Positions 35,772 to 36,210 of a DNA stretch of 64,000 nucleotides are shown here, one piece after another; positions within the stretch are counted from its first letter, which is position 1; the number at the start of each line of letters is the position of its first letter. Origin of the DNA: Ignavibacteria bacterium RIFCSPLOWO2_12_FULL_56_21 (GTDB taxonomy: Bacteria > Bacteroidota > Ignavibacteria > UBA10030); the NCBI GenBank assembly GCA_001802945.1, contig MHAK01000040.1, positions 1 through 64,000 on the forward strand. The letters are read 5' to 3'. The translations under genes and the position numbers were made by a program. Under the pieces are notes generated by a model that did not search any database, was not told where the DNA came from, and saw only the letters and a program-made list of their open reading frames with translations.

Positions 35772-35850
35772 CCGACCACCTTGGGCAAGTACAACGGGTT
35801 CGAACTCCGCCTTCCGCTGCTGACCAACGCCTGCACGTGAACCAGTGTCG

Positions 35851-35924
35851 CGACCCCGGCGCGACTCGAACGCGCGACCTACAGCTTAGAAGGCTGTTGC
35901 TCTATCCAACTGAGCTACGGGGTC
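35851..35924 (-). tRNA. tRNA-Arg (anticodon TCT)
   Basis: A 74-nt cloverleaf on the minus strand: acceptor GACCCCG/CGGGGTC with discriminator G, D stem GCTC/GAGC with loop AGTTGGATA, anticodon stem ACAGC/GCTGT with loop CTTCTAA (anticodon TCT, window positions 35888-35890), variable AGGTC, T stem GCGCG/CGCGC with loop TTCGAGT. All stems pair. CCA is not encoded. Confidence 0.97.
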
Positions 35925-35962
35925 TTGAAATTGCCAAGCTCTGCAGGCGACGCGACCTACAG

Positions 35963-36046
35963 TCCCGTCCCGTTCGCCTCCGGCGAACGTGGACGGGATC
36001 CTCGTTCCGACAACGAACTTGCTTCGCAAGTTCGGTCGGAACGGGA
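35963..36046 (-). mobile_element. 84-nt two-hairpin insertion (element 1) in the tRNA-Arg copy
   Basis: Read on the minus strand: TCCCGT, a hairpin with stem TCCGAC...GTCGGA and an inner GAACTTGC/GCAAGTTC stem, then ACGAGGAT, then a second hairpin (GTTCGCC-GGA-GGCGAAC inside CCCGTCC/GGGACGGG). Inserted in the 3' side of the anticodon arm, directly after CTAAG. Absence from the intact copy defines both ends. No coding capacity. Confidence 0.8.
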
Positions 36047-36071
36047 CTTAGAAGGCTGTTGCTCTTTCCAA

Positions 36072-36152
36072 TGCCGCCATCTCCGCTAAATCATTGATGG
36101 CGGCATCCTCGTCACGTCCACGACTTGCTCCGCTGCGTCGGACGTGACGGGA
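36072..36152 (-). mobile_element. 81-nt two-hairpin insertion (element 2) in the tRNA-Arg copy
   Basis: Same plan as element 1 with different stems: TCCCGT, hairpin CACGTCC.GAC...GTC.GGACGTG, ACGAGGAT, then hairpin TGCCGCCATC...GATGGCGGCA. Inserted in the D loop, directly after CTCAG on the minus strand. Boundaries fixed by comparison with the intact tRNA gene. Confidence 0.8.
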
Positions 36153-36210
36153 CTGAGCTACGGGGTCTTACAATTGCAAATTCTAAGATGTCAATGGTAA
36201 ATGGAAACGG

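Follow-up and report, generated by a model that had tools for sequence, protein, structure and literature searches.

In GIY-YIG-bearing genomes of the bacterial order considered here, tRNA genes often stand beside damaged copies that small hairpins in the DNA have cut up, and the majority of the small GIY-YIG genes adjoin the tRNA gene to which each lineage appears dedicated. We consider it probable that free-standing, tRNA-specific GIY-YIG homing endonucleases duplicate their target tRNA and leave hairpin-marked broken copies behind, and that the locus at the centre of this analysis is a nuclease-less remnant of that activity. The locus lies in a window – the whole stretch of DNA that was analysed, comprising 64,000 nt of contig MHAK01000040.1 (GCA_001802945.1) – from Ignavibacteria bacterium RIFCSPLOWO2_12_FULL_56_21. 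It can be described, with similar confidence, as a redundant copy of tRNA-Arg interrupted by two inserts of a two-hairpin family, one case of a process that would be order-wide.

The window locus and its two inserts

A single intact tRNA-Arg(TCT) gene was detected in the window by ARAGORN and Rfam. Just upstream of it, in the sense of the tRNA, sits a broken second copy that ends at about tRNA position 52. The initial annotation, made from the letters of the window, had described a tandem copy split by inserts of 84 and 81 nt, and this description is borne out by three matching blocks and a lost 3' end. The features of the locus are as follows:

35850..35924, minus strand: intact tRNA-Arg(TCT) gene (ARAGORN; Rfam RF00005, 71 bits)
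35925..35950, minus strand: spacer between the broken and the intact copy (29-nt direct repeat, 90%)
35951..35962, minus strand: broken tRNA-Arg copy, 3'-most surviving block, tRNA positions ~40-51 (100% match, 12 nt)
35963..36046, minus strand: insert E1, 84 nt, TCCC-hairpin-GAGGATC-hairpin-GGGA (direct-repeat match, fold, homologue in a congener at locus L159)
36047..36071, minus strand: broken copy, middle block, tRNA positions ~15-39 (96% match, 25 nt)
36072..36152, minus strand: insert E2, 81 nt, TCCC-hairpin-GAGGATG-hairpin (direct-repeat match, fold)
36153..36167, minus strand: broken copy, 5' block, tRNA positions 1 to ~15 (direct repeat D1)
36168..36180, minus strand: duplicated flank upstream of the tRNA, 13 bp (direct repeat D1, 90%)

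Within the spacer, the 13 nt adjoining the intact gene are a repeat of the sequence that lies upstream of the broken copy; counting the 13 bp of that duplicated upstream flank, the block at 36152-36180 matches at 90%, and the middle block carries a single substitution, A-to-T. E1 is flanked by CTTCTAAG and CTGTAG, which places it between tRNA positions 39 and 40, while E2 is flanked by GTAGCTCAG and TTGG, its end being ambiguous by one shared A. No target duplication was seen at E1 or E2. Precise insertion, terminal hairpins and the absence of duplication, all three of which had been read from the letters at the outset, hold here and for the further copies in the genome. The possibility of an assembly artefact, also raised at the outset, can be set aside because a congener (G001, locus L159) has an E1-homologous insert at the same base of tRNA-Arg(TCT); there the order is reversed, with the intact tRNA-Arg(TCT) first and the broken copy second, and the flank is partly syntenic with that of the window locus. 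An Rfam search found no group I intron (Intron_gpI) in the window, and neither a GIY-YIG gene nor a remnant of one was found in it.

Each insert consists of two adjacent hairpins joined by the linker GAGGATC (E1) or GAGGATG (E2). Folded as single-stranded DNA, E1 reaches -40.7 kcal/mol (z -10.3) and E2 -28.0 kcal/mol (z -7.0), the z values being relative to shuffled sequence. The pattern TCCCGTN{20,50}CGAGGAT has two matches in the window, a number reached in none of 100 shuffles, and CTNAGTCCCGT is likewise confined to the two insert sites. Stem lengths vary strongly among inserts; across five related first hairpins, five stem pairs have changed on both sides, which is more than in any of 500 shuffles, and the hairpin form is therefore maintained or re-made.

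The insertion site was tabulated for the 12 inserts whose position is fixed by an intact copy. CTNAG, initially proposed as the short fixed target, precedes five of them, in the main owing to the GCTCAG of D-arms. Five is many more than the frequency of CTNAG in these tRNAs would give, but CTNAG was rejected as a universal target; the general site is a G followed by Y (11 of 12, baseline 0.19; P ~1e-7). Since the inserts run TCC...GGA, the outer stem can gain one further G-C or G-T pair from the bases on either side. Different genera share insertion sites in tRNA-Asp, -Pro, -Val and -Arg: hairpins occupy the same two places in the tRNA-Asp of several genera, and two different families have a hairpin pair of the same kind at one shared position of tRNA-Pro. 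These two-hairpin inserts are the least explained, and possibly the most novel, part of the system.

It had been suggested that the inserts are non-autonomous elements of the IS200/IS605 or REP/RAYT kind, mobilised in single-stranded form by a Y1 (HUH) transposase and landing 3' of CTNAG. The likeness is real insofar as these, too, are small hairpin elements with terminal hairpins, oriented insertion and no target duplication; this genome also contains seven Y1_Tnp genes (loci L050-L056), and CTNAG is enriched before the inserts. Nonetheless, while precise insertion, terminal hairpins and missing duplication stand, the matching ends and the fixed target do not: TCCC-hairpin-GAGGATC-hairpin-GGGA ends flank none of the seven Y1_Tnp loci, and the target consists of tRNA copies at G-Y junctions rather than a fixed tetra- or pentanucleotide. 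The concentration of copies in tRNA copies is, moreover, something for which Y1 elements offer no reason. A Y1/RAYT origin of the tRNA inserts was rejected for want of a Y1_Tnp gene with matching hairpin ends, and we regard it as very unlikely. Several of the Y1_Tnp genes lie between copies of their own distinct hairpins, and these are ordinary RAYT/REP-like loci unrelated to the tRNA inserts.

Broken tRNA copies in the genome and its relatives

Further copies of the inserts, for which the initial annotation had proposed a search of the whole genome, were found, and nearly all copies in this genome lie in redundant tRNA copies. Two initial patterns gave more good or partial copies inside second copies of Val(CAC), Gln(TTG), Asp(GTC) and a Val-like tRNA (contig C41); the exception is an intergenic copy at C9:11897. 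A third pattern, GAGRATCCCG...CGGGA, has 11 matches in this genome, nine of them with real, distinct hairpins, and of these nine all but C84:22534 lie either inside a tRNA or a broken tRNA copy or no more than ~300 bp away from one. Among the relatives, eight of 13 good hairpins lie within 600 bp of tRNAs and ~40% elsewhere, so that the restriction to tRNAs is strong here and partial elsewhere. Around the intergenic copy on contig C9 (L072), hairpin pairs occur outside tRNAs and the contig contains a run of N; the neighbours there, judged by eye, are apparently a Fic/Doc-like gene and a nucleotidyltransferase/HEPN-type gene pair.

Each tRNA was also compared with its own surroundings, a broken copy being a same-strand fragment of a similar tRNA within 900 bp. 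By this definition 17 of the 43 tRNAs in this genome have at least one broken copy, and neither the opposite strand nor reversed sequence, used as controls in the same genome, gave any. Two other genomes with GIY-YIG genes have 13/38 and 11/38 such tRNAs and two GIY-YIG-free relatives 0/41 and 1/39, so that five genomes in all enter this comparison. Of 41 broken copies, 25 have a perfect hairpin next to them, where 3.4 would be expected. Across 61 genomes, counts of the hairpin pattern and of GIY-YIG genes show a modest correlation (Spearman 0.36, p 0.005), and two genomes with no detected GIY-YIG gene have three hairpin-pattern matches each. As the window contains no GIY-YIG gene, and no such gene lies within 900 bp of 13 of this genome's 17 broken copies, the link between the window locus and these genes is drawn by analogy.

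Breakpoints occur all along the tRNA and peak in the T loop, the anticodon arm and the D arm; a single cleavage position in the tRNA was considered and rejected on account of this dispersal. Contigs C12, C32, C41, C69 and C117 of this genome end inside or beside tRNA genes or broken tRNA copies, and some copies are therefore probably missing from the assembly.

Two other accounts of the broken copies bear on these observations. The hairpin-bearing copies might be functional – tRNA-like decoy or regulatory RNAs, directed for instance against anticodon nucleases and selected together with the GIY-YIG protein – and stems that keep pairing through compensatory changes, at positions that recur across genera, would fit such a role. 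Many broken copies, however, are cut down to 15-40 nt, copies differ between congeners, and the one in the window lacks its 3' end, all of which makes this explanation highly improbable. Alternatively, the copies could be remnants of larger islands or phages integrated at tRNAs by a tyrosine recombinase, the tRNA pieces being old attachment sites. tRNA genes are indeed the classic integration site. One study ascribes an archaeal tRNA-Thr fragment to a recombinase-encoding element (PMC3293823). Yet broken copies here keep 5', middle and 3' parts and lie tens to hundreds of bp from the intact gene, and the gene between the copies, when present, is a small GIY-YIG gene; of all the readings weighed, we give this one the least credence.

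Small GIY-YIG genes and their tRNA cassettes

The genome encodes seven GIY-YIG proteins. Two of them, UvrC and one other, are longer; the remaining five are small, and each of their genes (5/5) abuts a tRNA – Pro(CGG), Asp(GTC), Leu(CAA), Ser(GCT) and Asn(GTT) – and the GIY-YIG domain PF01541 is recognised by Pfam at E 1e-12 to 1e-18 in the four small proteins that are N-free. Small GIY-YIG genes are present in 56 of 61 genomes of the order, and their patchy presence among relatives is consistent with homing. The order-wide set comprises 80 full-length GIY-YIG proteins picked by sequence alone; the named set of homologues, which came from a query with a single protein, is a small sample. Order-wide, 66 of the 80 genes lie within 500 bp of an intact tRNA and 59 within 200 bp, and every one of the 66 tRNA-adjacent genes is on the strand of the tRNA, while Asgard homologues from another collection are near a tRNA in none of 17 cases. 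The 14 genes with no intact tRNA nearby include five beside an intron-split tRNA-Asn and at least three more with tRNA pieces.

A maximum-likelihood tree of the GIY-YIG proteins (n=80) sorts by tRNA anticodon, with 24 label changes where the minimum is 21; shuffled labels gave a mean of 51.2, and none of 200 shuffles was as low as 24. The proteins are short, which leaves parts of the tree weakly supported, and vertical inheritance at fixed loci may account for some of the sorting by isoacceptor. Two features of free-standing homing endonucleases, location at a specific target gene and target-specific lineages, were found.

A small GIY-YIG clade in the same order (L130, L309, L313, L321) has no recognisable tRNA piece nearby. 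Tandem pairs of GIY-YIG genes occur at one tRNA at L340, L341, L306 and L307, as segmental amplification would predict, and at L076, L114, L118 and L124 the GIY-YIG reading frames extend into tRNA sequence, the stop codon lying inside the tRNA or its hairpin.

At many loci, in many genera, the genes are arranged as cassettes consisting of a tRNA, a GIY-YIG gene and a tRNA part with a hairpin. In four of them (L139, L124, L132, L129) the order is intact tRNA, GIY-YIG gene, a hairpin-bearing part from the D arm onward and the remaining tRNA; the GIY-YIG gene begins a few bases past the tRNA 3' end, and a TCCC...GGGA-type hairpin replaces, or sits inside, a tRNA arm. L137 and L125 have the reverse layout, with the hairpin-bearing 5' part first and the intact tRNA last. 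Tandem repeats of the cassette in which one unit has a degraded nuclease gene are found at L132 and, in the present genome, at Leu(CAA). Opitutaceae (L099) and Verrucomicrobiales (L112) have cassettes of broadly the same layout. Five relatives of the GIY-YIG clade of tRNA-Asn (L120, L123, L126, L131, L327) adjoin a tRNA-Asn gene whose anticodon is interrupted by a group I intron, recognised by Rfam (RF00028) at 81-97 bits. The GIY-YIG gene at these five loci lies outside the intron.

It might be argued that tandem tRNA duplicates arise by ordinary unequal exchange, that dispersed palindromes then accumulate in them free of selection, and that the GIY-YIG genes are unrelated neighbours; redundant copies do tolerate insertions, and the good hairpins that relatives carry away from tRNAs could be counted in favour of such a view. 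It leaves unexplained, however, the shared strand of all 66 tRNA-adjacent genes, the isoacceptor-sorted tree, the near absence of broken copies in the two GIY-YIG-free genomes and the reuse of the same tRNA positions across genera, and we think it unlikely.

A proposed course of events and its precedents

Under the reading that we favour, in which GIY-YIG homing endonucleases duplicate their target, a nuclease would begin by cutting a cassette-free tRNA gene. Repair from the donor, with tRNA sequence serving as homology arms, would then copy in the GIY-YIG gene together with a tRNA part, giving the arrangement seen in the cassettes; and since the cassette would be copied via these arms, one intact tRNA would always be regenerated beside the redundant copy. 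Hairpin-pair inserts at particular tRNA positions of that copy would destroy the target there, and the hairpins, recurrent in position and specific in site, probably pass from one tRNA gene to another through this same break-and-copy conversion. Decay of the nuclease gene and of the copy would finally leave remnants such as that in the window, where a nuclease gene may formerly have stood. What the sequences show directly is how the parts are arranged and oriented, that lineages are specific for their targets, that sites are reused and, in five genomes, that broken copies go together with GIY-YIG genes; cleavage, copying and the movement of the hairpins are inferred from these. A further proposal, which we advance tentatively, is that the two-hairpin inserts form a new class of structured, site-specific DNA elements homing between tRNA genes, carried by break repair after isoacceptor-specific GIY-YIG cleavage, with cassettes that rebuild the intact tRNA each time – in short, a chromosome-borne selfish system that relies on tRNA genes.

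The closest tested precedent is SegB of T-even phages, a free-standing GIY-YIG homing endonuclease near tRNA genes, which in phage T6 is statistically tRNA-associated and drives amplification of a tRNA-containing segment (PMC13096335). The two systems share a small GIY-YIG protein beside tRNAs and the tandem amplification of a segment with a tRNA and the nuclease gene; the present one differs in occurring on bacterial chromosomes across an order, with one clade per isoacceptor, hairpin-marked broken tRNA copies and a cleavage step that we infer. Bacterial tRNA genes can also contain group I introns that carry homing endonucleases (review: PMC3984707); these likewise have a tRNA target and an insertion made harmless, and the same GIY-YIG clade stands beside a tRNA-Asn intron in the five relatives mentioned above. 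The window and most other loci, in contrast, have no intron, and the tRNA is kept by duplication rather than by splicing. In Caldiarchaeum (PMC3293823), a mobile element is reported to have disrupted an archaeal tRNA-Thr gene and left a tRNA fragment near a tRNA gene, which resembles the present loci; that case differs in involving a DNA recombinase, archaeal introns and a single isoacceptor, and the abstract makes no mention of hairpin pairs. The open-access literature searched contained no report of the bacterial-chromosome, hairpin-marked form of the arrangement. Homing endonucleases at tRNA genes are a known kind of system, to which hairpin-pair inserts are possibly a new addition.

tRNA genes are essential, and the usual view of them is as places where large islands integrate. 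In this order, the genes of single tRNA isoacceptors appear to be attacked by small nuclease genes that nevertheless leave the cell a working copy. If this is true, it would provide a bacterial counterpart to phage SegB and a natural set of tRNA-gene-specific endonucleases, and it would explain the broken tRNA copies and, possibly, the assembly breaks at tRNA loci. The same tRNA-Asn, met with a GIY-YIG gene and a group I intron in some genomes and with a GIY-YIG gene and a tRNA duplication in others, would offer natural pairs in which to test how a homing gene turns harmless.
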